Assembly (NCBI RefSeq): GCF_003664645.1
Contig: NZ_RCHC01000001.1
Coordinates: 62,001 to 126,000 of the forward strand
Length of the DNA stretch: 64,000 nucleotides
Direction of reading: 5' to 3'
From: Acinetobacter chengduensis
GTDB lineage: Bacteria > Pseudomonadota > Gammaproteobacteria > Pseudomonadales > Moraxellaceae
Numbering within the stretch: the first letter of the stretch is position 1; each line of letters starts with the position of its first letter. The position numbers were made by a program, and so were the translations under genes. The notes under the pieces were generated by a model. It searched no databases and was not told the origin of the DNA. It saw only the letters and a list, made by a program, of their open reading frames with translations. This document shows positions 4,373-36,008 of this stretch, in pieces.

Positions 4373-5617
4373 TCAGGAGTGAAAGCTAAATAGCTCATGA
4401 TTGCAACAAAATTCAAGCGCAAAATCATTTGGGTTTCCAAGATTCAACCATTTCAATTCTAATTTTGCATACTGACATGTTACATACAATTCAAATCCAA
4501 ATCCTAATATTTTATTCTCACCAAGGTACTGCAATGAATCTCTCTCAAGTGTGTGTAAACTTTGGTTAAAACAAATAAAACCTATTTTTTTATCATCAAC
4601 TAGCAATTCAACCCCATTTTTAACAACTTTTGCTGAAAGCCTAGAACAATCAGAAATATAATTATCTCTGCCCTTTAATAAACTATGTACAAAGAGCATT
4701 GAACTCTTTGAGTTATAACCATCCAAAACACTTTTATACCCCCAAGACTTCTCATCTACTATTTCACCGTAGTTTAATGAGCTTTGATATAAGGAATTCT
4801 GCAATACTTTCATTAGACCAAGAGAATGATATGTAAATTCTGCGTCACTAAAATTAATAAGTTTAAGATTCTTAAATAAATTATATTTAGCTAATAATTG
4901 GTGCAAGTCTACGTCTAAAATTTCATCATCCTGCGAAACCAATAAATAATAAAAAGAAATATGCAATGCAAACACCAACCCTTTTGTATAAGGAGCTGTG
5001 ATCATTTGAACATAATCATATTTTTCAGAATCCGCTATATTCATTCGATCAAGTCTTTTTAATATTAGAACCAAATAATCACGGTATGCGCATATACCAT
5101 GATCAACCCCAATATCATTTTTTATTTTTCCAAATTTTTCAGGGGGATTCATCTTTTCTTTTACAATTTCATTCAGTTTTTCATGATCGATTTTCTTAGA
5201 TAAAATATTTAGCTGATCAAGTGAGTACAAATAAATGCTTTCAAATTGCTGTAATGCCTGTTTTTCAAGCTGAGCGCTAATTAGCTCTCGATTTTCAGAT
5301 AACCCTTCTCTAGTTAACTTTAATGTCCACAAAACCCCCATAAGGCTGAGAAATGCAAACAGAGGATTTAACAATCCCCCCATGAAATCACCAAAAGCAC
5401 CCAATGCATTTCGTGGCGTATCTCCCTCCCATAGTATTTTAAAATTAAAGGGATTACCTACTTTCTCAACGTAAACTCCCCAAAGATAATTTGCAAAGAT
5501 AAAACAAATGAATAATGGCAAAATTATATAAAGAAACATTCCCCATAAAAATTTAATAAAAACTTTACCCTTCACCCAACAATCTCTCATTAAGTTCTTC
5601 TTTTTCTTATCATCCAT
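4373..5617 (-). CDS. Membrane protein resembling putative phage abortive-infection (AbiC-like) family
   Basis: 414 residues. A transmembrane helix spans about 23-49. The motif GAFGDFMGGLLNPLFAFLS (about 73-91) runs into a second helix, and a long coiled-coil (about 100-150, rich in E/Q/L) follows. A helical region contains YRDYLVLILKRLDRMN and AP-YTKGLVFALHISFYYL. This order (FGD..G..NP, TM, coiled coil, helical 'ff' block) is that of the putAbiC family (Pfam PF16872). The assignment rests on motif memory, not a search. The gene is clearly more AT-rich than ilvC next door. The ATG at 5617 touches the ilvC terminator T-tract and has no normal RBS. An ATG at 5590 preceded by AAGAAG is an alternative start. 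Confidence 0.6.
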   Translation of the reverse strand: MDDKKKKNLMRDCWVKGKVFIKFLWGMFLYIILPLFICFIFANYLWGVYVEKVGNPFNFKILWEGDTPRNALGAFGDFMGGLLNPLFAFLSLMGVLWTLKLTREGLSENRELISAQLEKQALQQFESIYLYSLDQLNILSKKIDHEKLNEIVKEKMNPPEKFGKIKNDIGVDHGICAYRDYLVLILKRLDRMNIADSEKYDYVQMITAPYTKGLVFALHISFYYLLVSQDDEILDVDLHQLLAKYNLFKNLKLINFSDAEFTYHSLGLMKVLQNSLYQSSLNYGEIVDEKSWGYKSVLDGYNSKSSMLFVHSLLKGRDNYISDCSRLSAKVVKNGVELLVDDKKIGFICFNQSLHTLERDSLQYLGENKILGFGFELYVTCQYAKLELKWLNLGNPNDFALEFCCNHELFSFHS

Positions 5618-5620
5618 AAA

Positions 5621-5648
5621 AAAACCCCGCTTCCGCAGGGTTTTTTAT
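5621..5648. terminator. Intrinsic terminator of ilvC
   Basis: A-tract, CCCCGC-TTCC-GCAGGG hairpin with one mismatch, then T6. Read on the minus strand it ends in T7 and closes the ilv operon 28 bp after ilvC. The T-run is immediately followed by the start codon of the AbiC-like gene. It can act in both directions. Confidence 0.8.
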
Positions 5649-5675
5649 AGCATAAAAATCAGCTAAATAAAGAAC

Positions 5676-6761
<1,086 letters not shown>

Positions 6762-30285: not shown

Positions 30286-30853
30286 CTTATAAAATATACG
30301 AGCTTGTCCAAGTAAAATTAAAACTATCACAACAGAAGGCTACTCAGCTAAACAGCATCAACTTACTAATCACCTTTCTCTATAAAAAGAAAAACCTCTA
30401 CTTCAGCATCCGTTTAAGTTGAGTTTGAATAATTCGATCTTATACACCACACCATAAAGCACACAACAAATTGGAATTTCTGTGACATCTACATTCGTAT
30501 TATTCCTGTCTATATTTTGGCTCAAGCAAATTTTCGTAAAGCTTTTTTAAATGTATTCCATCCAATAGCGATGGACTTACACAAAGAAAATGCATTTGTA
30601 AATTCGCAGTAAAATAATGAATATTTTTGATCTTTAAAATAGAACCAATATATTTATTTAAAAAATAAATCATCAACAATATTATTATAAAAAACACTTA
30701 CTATAAAAATAAATAAAGTATCAAATATATTATAACATTCAATTCTTAAGGATTTCTTAAGCTATTGATATTATATTAATTATTAATTACAACAATAATT
30801 AATCCTTAACTGTTAATATATAGATATTATTTTAATCTGGCAGTTTCTTTAGT
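30286..30853. other. AT-rich decayed stretch upstream of the Fur-like gene
   Basis: A minus-strand frame at 30500-30697 (65 residues, N-terminal hydrophobic) and a following open stretch in another frame look like further broken coding sequence. Near 30405-30445 a minus-strand frame ends IIQTQLKRMLK, reminiscent of a transposase C-terminus. None is an intact gene. The last 100 bp hold the promoter and operator region of the gene at 30854. Confidence 0.4.
30775..30803 (+). promoter_or_regulatory. Perfect dyad upstream of the Fur-like regulator gene
   Basis: ATTAATTATT and AATAATTAAT, 10-bp arms separated by 9 nt, 50 bp before the start codon. The AT-rich dyad resembles a Fur-superfamily operator in shape; autoregulation is a guess. 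Confidence 0.35.
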
Positions 30854-31288
30854 ATGGTATCAAAAGAATTTAATTCTGTGATTATGGGCATTTTGCACAG
30901 TGAAAAGCTTCGTGCCACCATACCAAGAGTCTTAGTATTGAGTGCTTTAATCGAGAAAGACAAAGAACTCACAGCAATTGATATCCATAAAATCATATCA
31001 ACAGATTATAATGAAGATCTATATATATCAACAATATATAACTCTTTACGTGCTTTTGAAGAAACAGGAATCATTCAAAAATTTAAAGTGGGTGATCAGC
31101 AAGCTTTTTATTCTATAAAAAAGAAAAGTGGTTCCATTCGAGCGATTTGTAGCGAATGTAAAAGAACTTATTTTATTAATGATGATGGACTAGAAGCATA
31201 TATTAAAAACTCTGCAAAGAATATTAACTCCCAATTAAACTCTTTCTCCGCTTTACTCCAAATCACATGTGAGCATTGTAAAAAATAA
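30854..31288 (+). CDS. Fur-superfamily regulator lacking the regulatory metal site
   Basis: 144 residues. The N-terminal winged helix (LRATIPRVLVLSALIE, then YISTIYNSLRAFEETGIIQKF) matches the Fur 'TxxR..il..l' and 'TVYR.L..l...Gi' pattern. The dimerisation half keeps both zinc CxxC pairs (C99-x2-C102 and C139-x2-C142). Where canonical Fur has HHHDHxxC, this protein has KKSGSIRAIC, and the position of the hinge His also lacks a His. It therefore probably binds structural zinc but senses no iron in the usual way. It lies 146 bp upstream of a TonB receptor and is AT-rich. Confidence 0.8.
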   Translation: MVSKEFNSVIMGILHSEKLRATIPRVLVLSALIEKDKELTAIDIHKIISTDYNEDLYISTIYNSLRAFEETGIIQKFKVGDQQAFYSIKKKSGSIRAICSECKRTYFINDDGLEAYIKNSAKNINSQLNSFSALLQITCEHCKK

Positions 31289-31383
31289 GCAATTTCTTAT
31301 TTGGAATAATTATTATTAAGGATAGTTATTCCAAATAACTCTCCCCTATTGTAAAATACGATAATTACAGTATTGCAAGAATA

Positions 31384-31402
31384 AATAATAATTATTATCA
31401 TT
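31384..31402 (+). promoter_or_regulatory. Fur-box-like site upstream of TonB receptor
   Basis: AATAATAATTATTATCATT, 13 of 19 positions match the E. coli Fur consensus and fit repeated NATWAT hexamers. It is 33 bp before the receptor start codon, a repressor position. Confidence 0.5.
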
Positions 31403-31434
31403 CGCAAAATTTTTAAATTTTGGGGTGCCTATTA

Positions 31435-33708
31435 ATGTCATTTATTAAAACACGTAAGAAAATTGTATCTTCTGCAATTGCCTCTTCACTGTCAGTTATC
31501 GCAGTAAATGCAATTGCACAAGATCAAGTGACTAAACTTGAAACGATTCACCAAGATGTTGTTACTGAACAAGCAAAAAGCTTAAAAGTGGACAAATCTG
31601 CGAATAGCAAGTTCATTGCCCCTCTTCTAGATACAGCTAAATCTGTCACTGTTATTCCAAAACAATTAATTGAAGATACTCAAGTAACGACGCTGAGTGA
31701 TGCTTTGCGTACTGTTCCTGGTATTACATTAGGTGCAGGTGAAGGTGGTAACCCGAACGGTGACCGTCCATTTATTCGTGGCTATAGCTCTGAAAGCTCA
31801 ATGTATGTGGATGGCGTACGTAATTCATCTTCACAAAACCGTGAAATGTTTGCCGTTGAGCAAGTTGAAGTCACCAAAGGTTCAGCATCATCTATGGGCG
31901 GCGCAGGCTCAGTCGGCGGTAGCATCAACATGATTTCTAAAGTGGCTAAAAAAGGCGACTTTTTAGAAGGTTCTGTTGGCGCAGGTACTGATGATTACCA
32001 ACGTATTACCTTAGATGGTAACAAAGACTTCGGCAATGGTGTTGCAGCTCGTGTTGCAGTAATGGGTCATCATAATAATAAAGCAGGCCAAGGCGATGAT
32101 GGTGCTGAATACGCACGTTTTGGTATTGCTCCAAGCATCACTTTTGGCTTAGATACAGATACCCGTGCAACATTAAGCTATTACTATTTAAAATCTGACG
32201 ATACACCAGATTCAGGCATTCCATATAGCTACGGCTATAACAGTGTTACAGGCAAAAATGGTGTAGTCGGAAAACCTGTAAATGTACCGCAAGGCACATA
32301 CTACGGCTGGCTAAATCGTGATTTCCAAAAACAAGAAAACCACATCGGCACAATCAAATTAGAACATGATTTGAATGAAGATTTAACTTTAAGCAACGTT
32401 GCGACCTATAACAAATCAAAAAATGATTATGCTTGGACACAGCCAGATGACTCACAAGGCAACGTAGCCAATGGTAAAGTATGGCGTCGTGCGAACTCAC
32501 GTATTACTGATACAGATACTTTTAGCGATCAGCTTTCTTTAAAAGGTAAGTTCAATACTGGTGCTTTTAAACATAATTTTAATACCGGTATCGAATACAG
32601 CCATCAAAAAACAGATATTGGCGCTTATGACATCACAGATCCGAATACATCAGTGATTAATGGTGGCGCATGTGCATTGCCTGTTTCAAATGGTTGGTGT
32701 ACTTCCCTAACCTCGCCTAATTCACGTGATCCTTGGTTAGGTTCAATTTCAGAAAATAAAGCAAAAACAACTCAAACATCTAAAAACACGGGTGTTTACT
32801 TTGCAGACAACATTGAAATTAATCCTCAATGGCTAATCGATTTAGGCTTACGTTGGGATAAATTCGACACTGAGCTACTGTATAATCAAGAAGCAACATC
32901 TGGACGTGGTGCAGCAGCTGTTAAAATTCCAGCAGGCACAAAATATGAGAGTGATCCTGATTTTTGGAGCTACAATTTAGGTGTTACTTTCAAGCCAGCT
33001 AAAAATGGCGCGATCTATGCTAGCTTTGCTACTTCTGCAAACCCTGTAGGTATCAATGCTGGTGACGGCGACAACAATGAAAATATTGGTACTGGTACAT
33101 CAGCATCAATTAACGAGCTAAAACCAGAAGAAGCTCGTACATTTGAAATTGGTACAAAATGGGATTTGTTTGATGACAAGCTCAATGTAACTGCAGCTAT
33201 TTTCCGTACTGAAAAACAAAATACCCGTATTGCAATTGATGCCAATACAACTGTCAATGCTGGTGAAAGCAAGGTTGATGGTTTCGAACTTGGACTTTCA
33301 GGTAATATTACTGACAAGTGGGCAGTCTTTGCTGGCTACAGCTACTTAGACAGCGAACTGACTAAAGTTGCTTATAACGATACCGCAAGCCAAGGCAAAC
33401 AATTACCTCAAATGGCAAAAAACAGCGGTACGCTGTGGACAACCTATGACCTAACAAATCAATTTACTGTTGGTGCAGGTGCTGTAGCTTCGGATAAAGT
33501 TTACGGTAGCTCGAACAACAGTATCTGGGTTCCTGGCTATGTCCGCTATGATGCAATGGCTCGCTACAATGTAAATAAAAATGTTGATCTTCAACTAAAC
33601 GTTAACAACTTGTCTGACAAACGTTACTTCAGCAAAGCATACGCTTCACATTACACAACTGAAGCCGAAGGTCGCAATGCAGTATTATCTGTGAACTTCA
33701 AATACTAA
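31435..33708 (+). CDS. TonB-dependent catecholate-type siderophore receptor
   Basis: 757 residues from the ATG at 31435, which has GGGGTG upstream. The signal peptide ends near INAIAQ-type residues 30-33. The plug domain shows KSVTVIPKQLIED, TLSDALRTVPGI, DRPFIRGYSS and MYVDGVRN. The beta barrel ends LSVNFKY with the terminal aromatic residue. The N-terminal half (GAGSVGGSINMISK, SYYYLKSDDTPDSGIPYSYG) resembles Fiu/PiuA/BfrD-class receptors for catechol siderophores; the true ligand is not determinable. Expected in the outer membrane and powered by TonB-ExbBD. It is followed by a terminator and then a two-component system. Confidence 0.92.
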   Translation: MSFIKTRKKIVSSAIASSLSVIAVNAIAQDQVTKLETIHQDVVTEQAKSLKVDKSANSKFIAPLLDTAKSVTVIPKQLIEDTQVTTLSDALRTVPGITLGAGEGGNPNGDRPFIRGYSSESSMYVDGVRNSSSQNREMFAVEQVEVTKGSASSMGGAGSVGGSINMISKVAKKGDFLEGSVGAGTDDYQRITLDGNKDFGNGVAARVAVMGHHNNKAGQGDDGAEYARFGIAPSITFGLDTDTRATLSYYYLKSDDTPDSGIPYSYGYNSVTGKNGVVGKPVNVPQGTYYGWLNRDFQKQENHIGTIKLEHDLNEDLTLSNVATYNKSKNDYAWTQPDDSQGNVANGKVWRRANSRITDTDTFSDQLSLKGKFNTGAFKHNFNTGIEYSHQKTDIGAYDITDPNTSVINGGACALPVSNGWCTSLTSPNSRDPWLGSISENKAKTTQTSKNTGVYFADNIEINPQWLIDLGLRWDKFDTELLYNQEATSGRGAAAVKIPAGTKYESDPDFWSYNLGVTFKPAKNGAIYASFATSANPVGINAGDGDNNENIGTGTSASINELKPEEARTFEIGTKWDLFDDKLNVTAAIFRTEKQNTRIAIDANTTVNAGESKVDGFELGLSGNITDKWAVFAGYSYLDSELTKVAYNDTASQGKQLPQMAKNSGTLWTTYDLTNQFTVGAGAVASDKVYGSSNNSIWVPGYVRYDAMARYNVNKNVDLQLNVNNLSDKRYFSKAYASHYTTEAEGRNAVLSVNFKY

Positions 33709-33968: not shown

Positions 33969-34649
33969 ATGATAAAAATTTTATATGTTGAAGATGATGT
34001 CATGATTGGTAAAACTACTTTTCATTTGCTTCAGCATGAAAAATTTGAAGTAGACTGGGCTAAAACTGGCACTGAAGCATTAAATTTATTATTTTCTAAT
34101 CTCTATCACATCGTGCTTTTAGACTTAGGTTTACCTGAACTCGAAGGCCTAGACATATTAAAACATATTCGCAATAAAGCGGATTTAACCAATATGTGTG
34201 TCATCATCATTAGTGCGCGAGATCAAAGTAAAGATAAAATCTTAGGGCTAAAATGCGGTGCCGATGATTATATTGTTAAACCTTATGACTTTGATGAATT
34301 AGTCGCACGTATTGAAACAGTACTAAGAAGAGGTAAATTTAATCAGGCGATTGAAGAAATCTGTTTTTGTGCAAAAGATGTTTGCTTATTTCCCCAAACA
34401 CATAAAGTACTGAAAAATAATATTGAAATTGAACTCGCACCCAAAGAGTGGGCCATTTTAGAACCTTTGATGATGTATCAGCGTCAAATTTTCTCACGTC
34501 AAATGTTGGAAGAAAAACTTTATGATTGGGATGGGCCAATCAGCAGTAATGCCATTGAAGTGCATATTCACAAATTAAGGCAAAAACTTGGCAAAGACTT
34601 CATTCGAACAGTAAGAGGTCTGGGATATTGCATAGATTTGGATGAATAG
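33969..34649 (+). CDS. OmpR-family response regulator
   Basis: 226 residues. The receiver domain has the acidic pair EDD (8-10), phospho-Asp in IVLLDLGLPELEG (about 52), Thr/Ser switch IIISARD and Lys in VKPYDF. The C-terminal winged helix ends HKLRQKLGKDFIRTVRGLGYCI. The order next to a histidine kinase and a siderophore receptor recalls the Pseudomonas pirR-pirS-pirA set, so control of iron uptake is plausible but unproved. The stop TAG abuts the kinase ATG. Confidence 0.93.
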   Translation: MIKILYVEDDVMIGKTTFHLLQHEKFEVDWAKTGTEALNLLFSNLYHIVLLDLGLPELEGLDILKHIRNKADLTNMCVIIISARDQSKDKILGLKCGADDYIVKPYDFDELVARIETVLRRGKFNQAIEEICFCAKDVCLFPQTHKVLKNNIEIELAPKEWAILEPLMMYQRQIFSRQMLEEKLYDWDGPISSNAIEVHIHKLRQKLGKDFIRTVRGLGYCIDLDE

Positions 34650-36008
34650 ATGAACATCAAGCCTTTCAGCAAATTTAATTCTTTATATAAGAATCAAGCA
34701 CTCAGCACCCGAATGATTTGGAGTATTTCTATACTCAGTGTAATACTACTTATTCTGCTTGCATTGGCTGCCTACTCGATTGCCTTAGAGGAATCAGAAG
34801 AAATCATTGATCAGCAAATGATTGAGATGTCTAACTTTTTATCGAGAGAAGTAAAATCTGAAGTACGTTCTGTATTTGATTTTAAGAGAAGATATGGCGA
34901 AAGAGATCTTTTTATTGATATTACGAATAAAAGCTCATTAGAAACTAGAAGTAACCGAGACAACTACATTGTTCCAGAGCTTCAAGCTGCTCAATTTGTG
35001 ATTAAAAAATCTTCACGTGGTACTTTAAAAATCTATGTAAAACCAACAGCAACGCAACAAATACAAATCAGTCAACCGATCATTGTCCGTAAAAATTTGG
35101 CCAAAGAATTAGCCTTTAATATGCTAGTGCCTTACCTGATTCTGATGCCACTCAGTATTATTGCAATTTATTTATTAATTCGTTTCCATTTAAGGCCATT
35201 AGAGCAATTAAAATTGGCATTCGCTCAGCGCGATTATAATGATTTATCTGAAATACAAATTAAAGAACTGCCAATTGAAATTAAGCCTGCTATGAATGAG
35301 CTCAACTCTTTATTTTTACGAATAGAGGAAGCACAAATGCAGCAGAAAGTCTTTGTGGCCAATGCCGCTCATGAGCTTCGCACACCGTTGACGTCATTGA
35401 GCCTTCAGTCTGATTTACTCATTAAAACCAAACCAGACAGCCCTATTTATAATGAAAATATTATTGATTTAAATTTAAGTCTAAAGCGCATGACGCATTT
35501 AGTTGGACAATTAATGTCGTTGGCGCATCAAGAAACGCTACAAGATGAATCCCTACAATCGTTGCACCTCATTGATTATGTTAGGCAATGTGTATCGCAG
35601 ATGCTAGCAAATGCGCGTCATAAAAATATCGATATACAAGTAGATTGTGAATCAGAAAATATTGCGGTTCTTGCTAAGCACTCATCATTAGAAAGTATTC
35701 TCATGAATCTAATCGATAATGCGGTGAAATATAGCCCTCAATTTGGTCAAATTCTGATTGTCATTTATGCCACCGATCAGCATGTTTATCTCGAAGTTCA
35801 TGATAGTGGATCGGGGATATCAGAAGAACAACGCGACTTAGTGTTCCAACGTTTCGTACGACTACAAGAAACCCAAAATCAAGTCATAGGAAGTGGTTTA
35901 GGGCTCTCTATCGTTCAATCTGCTGTTGAGTCAATCCATGCATCCATTCAACTGAATAGCTCCGAACAGTTAAAAGGCTTAAAAGTCTCTGTTATTTTTA
36001 AAAAATAA
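34650..36008 (+). CDS. Sensor histidine kinase (QseC/PmrB-like)
   Basis: 452 residues. TM1 is at about 19-43, a periplasmic sensor of about 110 residues follows, and TM2 is at about 160-178 (LVPYLILMPLSIIAIYLLI). A short HAMP-like linker leads to HisKA with NAAHELRTPLTSLSLQ, then HATPase N-box NLIDNAVKYSP and G1 DSGSGI. It pairs with the adjacent regulator, no gap between them. The signal sensed is unknown. Confidence 0.93.
   Translation: MNIKPFSKFNSLYKNQALSTRMIWSISILSVILLILLALAAYSIALEESEEIIDQQMIEMSNFLSREVKSEVRSVFDFKRRYGERDLFIDITNKSSLETRSNRDNYIVPELQAAQFVIKKSSRGTLKIYVKPTATQQIQISQPIIVRKNLAKELAFNMLVPYLILMPLSIIAIYLLIRFHLRPLEQLKLAFAQRDYNDLSEIQIKELPIEIKPAMNELNSLFLRIEEAQMQQKVFVANAAHELRTPLTSLSLQSDLLIKTKPDSPIYNENIIDLNLSLKRMTHLVGQLMSLAHQETLQDESLQSLHLIDYVRQCVSQMLANARHKNIDIQVDCESENIAVLAKHSSLESILMNLIDNAVKYSPQFGQILIVIYATDQHVYLEVHDSGSGISEEQRDLVFQRFVRLQETQNQVIGSGLGLSIVQSAVESIHASIQLNSSEQLKGLKVSVIFKK

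Follow-up and report, generated by a model that had tools for sequence, protein, structure and literature searches.

Organization of the locus

The window, by which we mean the whole 64,000-nucleotide stretch of Acinetobacter chengduensis DNA that was analysed, carries on its forward strand genes for a Fur-family regulator of 144 aa in which the Cys4 zinc site is present and the iron-sensing site is lost (30854..31288; from the ORF, Pfam, alignment and predicted structure), a PiuA-type TonB-dependent siderophore receptor of 757 aa (31435..33708), an OmpR-type response regulator that is a paralogue of PmrA (33969..34649) and a QseC/PmrB-like sensor histidine kinase (34650..36008). A PmrA-type direct repeat, CTTAAG-GATTT-CTTAAG (30745..30761), lies 92 bases before the start codon of the Fur-like gene, and a Fur box lies before the receptor (31386..31400). 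The order Fur-like gene, receptor, PmrA-type regulator, kinase is shared by all four orthologous loci, with a PiuC gene between receptor and regulator in the three relatives and none beside the window receptor.

The first-pass annotation of this DNA had placed a TonB receptor downstream of the Fur-like gene, which is borne out by an ATG at 31435 and by Pfam plug and barrel domains. The nearest solved relative of this receptor was 5fp1 (1038 bits), which we take to be A. baumannii PiuA, followed by 5nec and 5fok; the Fiu model gave 446 bits, under its cut-off of 686. The Fur-like protein had also been proposed to regulate the receptor. The linkage behind that proposal stands, as the gene lies directly upstream of the same receptor in 4/4 orthologues; regulation itself we infer from sequence. 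A second PiuA-like receptor and a PKHD hydroxylase (PiuC-like) lie approximately 43 kb away in the same genome (L199:2510-4918 and 5031-5714; G000:C1:136510-139714), and with 1177 bits this second receptor is nearer to the window receptor than is its counterpart at the orthologous locus L034 (1122 bits).

The Fur-like protein has a Fur fold and is under purifying selection

Residues 18-130 of the Fur-like protein matched Pfam FUR (57.1 bits, E = 2.5e-15, cut-off 23.1). Its predicted structure, from a five-sequence alignment, was a Fur fold (mean pLDDT 81.6, pTM 0.62) whose best solved match was P. aeruginosa Fur (Z 15.3, rmsd 2.4, 132 residues), followed by other Furs, so the winged-helix Fur fold first read from the translation at 30854 is upheld. 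The protein nevertheless scored far under the curated cut-offs of all seven NCBIfam Fur/PerR/Irr models that it matched, including the equivalogs for Fur (NF006999, 46.5 bits v 146), PerR (NF052545, 35.8 v 180) and Irr (NF045677, 34.6 v 170). No Zur model was among these seven matches, and the 3.77-Mb window genome contains three FUR-family genes, namely true Fur (152 bits), the Fur-like gene and a separate Zur-like gene (L003).

Orthologues with 47–49% identity were found in three other genomes, making 4/175 Acinetobacter genomes including the window's own. This rarity would suit a decaying Fur duplicate without function. However, the ORF is intact, the gene order and promoter box are conserved, and dN/dS among the three orthologues (L034, L035, L036) was 0.048, 0.068 and 0.084. 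Values of 0.05–0.08 indicate that the gene is not decaying, and we consider decay extremely unlikely. Between the window gene and the three relatives, dS was 2.0, 3.4 and saturated.

The regulatory metal site is lost

The S2 regulatory iron site of F. tularensis Fur comprises His33, Glu81, His88, His90 and Glu101 (PMC6123631). The numbering is the same as in E. coli Fur, and the window protein has none of these five ligands (H33→E38, E81→S87, H88→S94, H90→R96, E101→F107), while all four structural-zinc cysteines are present by alignment (Cys99, Cys102, Cys139, Cys142). At H87, D89, E108 and H125, which we take to be site S3, E108 alone survives, as E114; its equivalent is present in the window protein and its three close orthologues. 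Thus, the first reading that both zinc CxxC pairs were kept, and that the HHHDH stretch and its associated His/Glu ligands were replaced, was correct.

We found no conserved alternative metal site, judged by conservation across five related proteins: none of the three His residues of the Fur-like protein is invariant among these, and the only invariant possible ligands outside Cys4 are E34 and E69. The PerR-type sensing positions, which presumably coincide with S2, are also replaced. The protein has four Cys, all within the zinc pairs, and therefore lacks an Irr-type haem motif, the feature that we take to mark the Irr class. The sequence thus predicts a Fur fold unable to sense iron in the normal way, as had been suggested. 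Redox or haem sensing, raised at the same time, gained no positive support from the cysteines, which are only those of the zinc site, or from histidines, none being invariant in the five relatives.

Iron-blind Fur paralogues with a zinc site recur in the genus

At least three FUR-family matches were present in 75/175 genus genomes. A profile (A1) was built from 14 proteins in 13/175 genomes; these scored above 160 bits, as its own members do by construction, and nothing else exceeded 120 bits. L213, which is A1-like at 120 bits, lacks the zinc cysteines and was left out of the set. Cys4 is complete in 14/14 A1 proteins, and S2 residues are absent from 13/14, with E101 alone remaining in L038. 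An unusual sensor, in which S2 has gone and another site (around E114 or Cys4, for example) detects metal or redox state, would be in keeping with the invariance of Cys4 in all 14 and with the retention of the E108 equivalent in the window protein and its three close orthologues. The loss of S2 across the same 14 proteins (L038 keeping only E101) and the want of any invariant His among the five related proteins make such a sensor very unlikely.

A TonB receptor lies within 3 kb of 12/14 A1 proteins. With 20 plug domains in the 3.77-Mb window genome, we estimate that roughly 4% of random places would be equally near one. For the other two, L037 and L041, no TonB receptor was seen in the DNA viewed, which for L037 extends only 2.4 kb on one side. 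Several A1 loci also carry a PiuC-like gene, or FecI/FecR and haem oxygenase genes (confirmed by Pfam in L043 only). At L043, L044, L045 and L047 the iron-blind Fur-like gene lies near haem oxygenase-like, FecI/FecR-like and large TonB receptor genes, an arrangement that in our view resembles the hemO cluster of A. baumannii.

These surroundings bear on the possibility of a local repressor whose DNA binding needs no metal and which a siderophore, haem or redox signal would release. The receptor adjoining the Fur-like gene, and the occurrence of related proteins in loci that carry a receptor as well as FecI/FecR and haem oxygenase genes (FecI/FecR and haem oxygenase Pfam-checked in L043 only), would agree with it. 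Yet E34 and E69 are the only invariant possible ligands beyond Cys4 in the five proteins, there is no Cys outside the zinc pairs to form an Irr-type haem motif, and a two-component input already supplies a signal. Ligand-released repression is therefore, in our judgement, quite unlikely.

A single-sequence search of genome contigs returned no relative, and an alignment-based search returned four matches (A. ursingii, A. guerrae and two Acinetobacter sp.). An order-wide A1 search (E <= 1e-26) found matches in 3/293 genomes, of which the two outside Acinetobacter scored 94.8 bits, a value near true Fur. Plasmid records gave 10 matches to the Fur-like protein, the best of them at no more than 32% identity.

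The genus also has FUR-family proteins that are more degenerate and lack the C-terminal Cys pair. We hand-picked 18 FUR-family loci and viewed the neighbours of 13. In 7/13 a TonB receptor was adjoining or one gene off (Pfam), a count that includes L099 with its shortened ORF, and 5/13 lay behind a PadR-like gene (by resemblance). The proteins at L082, L084, L086, L093 and L095, which lack the S2 ligands and the C-terminal Cys pair, recurrently follow this PadR-like gene. At L099:6042-6320 a shortened Fur-like ORF of 92 aa, which may be a broken copy, lies directly behind a TonB receptor. L088 represents one receptor-side type, in which no more than one of the zinc cysteines is left; three A. 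baumannii records contain a protein with 91% identity to it. In the remaining one of the 13, a Fur-family protein of a different type that keeps Cys4 lies beside a COG0523-like GTPase gene at L092:6267-6698, 3 kb from a Fur paralogue with a partly lost zinc site.

A conserved PmrA-type box precedes the Fur-like gene

The A. baumannii PmrA site is given as HTTAAD-N5-HTTAAD, with TTTAAG-N5-TTTAAG supported by gel shift and calorimetry (PMC10927774). The repeat at 30745-30761 fits this pattern, which makes the promoter of the Fur-like gene a predicted PmrA target. An exact CTTAAG-N5-CTTAAG lies upstream of the Fur-like gene in 4/4 orthologous loci. The most conserved 17 columns 5' of the gene start at 30744/30745, with 14/17 identical in all four loci, and the exact box was retained although synonymous sites are near saturation between the window and its relatives. 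As the three relatives are mutually close, this conservation amounts to two lineages. The exact box arose in 0/1000 shuffles of the 1.2-kb intergenic region, where the degenerate YTTAAK-N5-YTTAAK averaged 0.029. In the same promoter region the best Fur box match was 11/14, reached by 23% of shuffles, and so is unsupported.

Two exact copies of the box occur in the 3.77-Mb window genome. Across the genus we found 22 sites in 21 of 172 genomes (G134, outside this sample, also has one), three of them at Fur-like loci, and we inspected all 19 others. Five of the 19 are followed at 70–90 bp by a gene of the YdjC family (two of these checked by Pfam), which we take to be the family of naxD. A published PmrA target is naxD itself (PMC10927774). 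These five therefore serve as a positive control, and the remaining 14 do not, having no known PmrA target downstream. Two of the 14 represent one site common to the window genome and G022 (L122:1501-1517, L133:1501-1517), just 5' of a 106-aa ORF that follows a TonB receptor gene; the remaining 12 form a mixed group, with at least four inside ORFs. Thus, the exact sequence alone is no proof of a PmrA site. The degenerate pattern was at chance level genome-wide (40 matches v 49 for the reversed control), and our analysis used only the exact form. We find the box before the Fur-like gene convincing as a putative PmrA-type site by its place and its conservation, and not by its motif alone.

The first-pass annotation had drawn attention to a 10-bp perfect dyad upstream of the same gene. 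The dyad exists, with 10/10 bp paired around a spacer of 9 (30775-30784/30794-30803), but is probably due to chance: one as good was found in 12% of dinucleotide shuffles of the local 84% A+T stretch and in 5.5% when the 1.2-kb intergenic region was shuffled, and the three orthologous loci keep no more than 4, 5 and 5 of its 10 pairs. Its span has 15/29 columns identical across the four loci, compared with 90/254 for 30600-30853, so the sequence there is somewhat conserved and the dyad itself is not. With chance-level shuffles and pairing lost in the relatives, we rejected it as an operator.

A PmrAB-like system lies beyond the receptor

PmrA was the best NCBIfam model for the window regulator (205 bits, under the cut-off of 330), and its nearest solved relatives were BasR/PmrA. 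The best models for the kinase gave 174 and 150 bits, also under their cut-offs. A separate gene, placed after an EptA gene, encodes the genome's own PmrA-type regulator, with which the window regulator shares 50% identity. In the C-terminal recognition region the two are equal at 23/29 residues, v 19/29 for own PmrA and another paralogue.

Relatives of the window regulator (E <= 1e-75) occurred in 19/175 genus genomes, and we examined 6–11.5 kb around the regulator in the 15 that lack the Fur-like gene. Within these spans 0/15 loci showed an exact box, the Fur-like gene or a window-type receptor, and two had weakly similar receptors; the looser HTTAAD form was present at 6/15. The upstream neighbour of the regulator was EptA-like in 14/15 (by resemblance, with Pfam on one, L195). 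G029, G134 and G169 each have two regulator copies, the second of which follows an EptA-like gene in G169 and, by resemblance, in G029. These EptA-type surroundings suggest that a two-component system of lipid A type was copied to a place beside the receptor, and that the Fur-like gene and its box came with it. The box, the wider paralogue set and the PmrAB-like system as the probable input were absent from the first-pass annotation.

Fur and the Fur-like protein may meet in the receptor control region

The 7-1-7 Fur box consensus, which we take to be TGATAATNATTATCA, is matched at 13/14 positions by TAATAATTATTATCA at 31386..31400, a score reached by 0/300 shuffles. A Fur-like box before the receptor, as originally proposed, is thus confirmed in the window. 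Against the 19-base E. coli Fur consensus the best match was 14/19, reached by 2.8% of shuffles. The box is weaker in the three relatives, whose best scores out of 14 were 12 (0.7% of shuffles as good), 12 (2.3%) and 11 (14%). A further 7-1-7 repeat, GAATAATTATTATTA (31304..31318), is a candidate operator for Fur or for the Fur-like protein; it aligns with TAATAATCATTATTA, a perfect palindrome, in two relatives and with CAATAATCATTATTA in the third. We could distinguish no operator of the Fur-like protein from Fur boxes. Right after the Fur-like stop codon there is a 17-nt inverted repeat (94%; 31297-31338) without a T run, which may limit read-through into the receptor.

A rival reading is an anti-Fur, which would work mainly by pairing with true Fur in heterodimers or by covering Fur boxes without causing repression, leaving receptors on. 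The predicted full-length Fur fold and the Fur box in the target region would allow this, and another Fur homologue, P. aeruginosa PA2384, promotes iron acquisition (PMC10281387). The recognition helix is unlike that of Fur, however, with R57 replaced by N63 in the window protein and by S, T or Q in the remaining A1 proteins, 13 in all; the genome's own true Fur is only 27% identical over residues 14-139; and the tie to a single receptor points to a local target more than to a global one. We consider an anti-Fur unlikely.

A possible dosage-controlled regulator of one receptor

We tentatively propose that the gene at 30854 encodes a metal-independent local regulator with a Fur fold, through which a PmrAB-like system controls a Fur-repressed PiuA-type receptor, and we put the probability of this reading at about 0.48. 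The loss of the ligands, purifying selection, the conserved box, the conserved linkage and the Fur box are in the sequence. That the regulator binds the box and that the Fur-like protein binds the receptor promoter we infer, as we do the sign of the effect. The Zn(Cys4) site would stabilise a DNA-binding protein of Fur fold that no longer senses iron; loss of S2 under purifying selection implies that the protein is wanted without iron sensing. The neighbouring PmrAB-like system, or PmrA itself, would bind the CTTAAG-N5-CTTAAG box and set the amount of Fur-like protein. As the gene's own promoter has a PmrA-type box but no Fur box could be detected there, this amount should follow the two-component system.

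The output would be the 31289-31434 control region, which the Fur-like protein most likely targets and to which true Fur is also expected to bind. As the Fur box lies within it, two inputs would converge on one receptor promoter: iron status by way of true Fur, and a signal from the envelope or a ligand by way of the two-component system and the iron-blind paralogue. Two-component systems linked to receptors usually induce their receptor. Together with the promotion of iron acquisition by PA2384, this weakly favours a positive effect, and we slightly favour a protein that would relieve Fur repression or activate the receptor.

A bolder reading is that Acinetobacter repeatedly made Fur into metal-free switches of the one-receptor-one-regulator kind, with a Glu-Arg/Lys salt bridge locking the DNA-binding shape and with control by gene dosage, here through a PmrAB-like envelope sensor. 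Glu at the Fur His33 position (DNA-binding domain) and Arg/Lys at the His90 position (dimerisation domain) co-occur in 11/14 A1 proteins, so that a salt bridge could replace the tie that iron makes between the domains through His33 and His90. With few independent lineages, the E33/R90 pairing could reflect shared descent and not compensation; the lock is only a hypothesis, and we regard the whole proposal as speculative and doubtful. If true, control would move from iron to dosage, and a siderophore receptor would escape or override Fur. More broadly, the locus would show an iron sensor rebuilt as an iron-blind, receptor-specific regulator, and would link a circuit of PmrAB (polymyxin-response) type to a PiuA-type receptor. 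Receptors of the PiuA class have been connected with the uptake of cefiderocol, a siderophore-antibiotic conjugate (PMC10483418).

Comparison with known systems

The Fur-like protein shares with Fur (P. aeruginosa 6h1c/1mzb, F. tularensis 5nbc) the winged helix, the dimerisation fold and the Pfam FUR domain, and its zinc cysteines are as in most Furs. It differs from them in lacking the S2 iron ligands, in the replacement of the R57 equivalent and in an identity of only 20–27%.

Two Fur homologues elsewhere are alike by description. P. aeruginosa PA2384 is induced by iron starvation and promotes iron acquisition, its transcription is modulated by the two-component system AlgZR, and its reported effects are global (review PMC10281387); the likeness lies in a Fur homologue tied to iron acquisition and to two-component input. 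ABAYE1887 of A. baumannii AYE is an uncharacterised second FUR-like gene beside siderophore genes, up 164-fold in low iron and with a predicted Fur box upstream (PMC3055841); here the likeness is a Fur-like gene adjoining siderophore genes. The Fur-like gene fits the kind that we take these two to stand for, in which an iron-uptake locus encodes a Fur domain whose iron ligands are missing. Our search for such regulators in Acinetobacter, made largely outside the subscription literature, yielded only mentions of ABAYE1887 and of ABUW_2074, another Fur-family gene, in AB5075 (PMC5382811). In the literature so covered we found no description of how the sensor was lost, of the link to a receptor or of the PmrA-type box.

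The direct-repeat box is like that of PmrAB (BasRS), and the window regulator has 50% identity with the PmrA-type regulator found elsewhere in the genome. Unlike in PmrAB, the box here precedes a Fur-like gene beside a siderophore receptor and not a lipid A gene. PirRS and PfeRS of Pseudomonas, which we take to be siderophore-receptor two-component systems, resemble this locus in that a two-component system adjoins a catecholate-type receptor; they differ in that the regulator here is of PmrA type and its putative box lies before the Fur-like gene.
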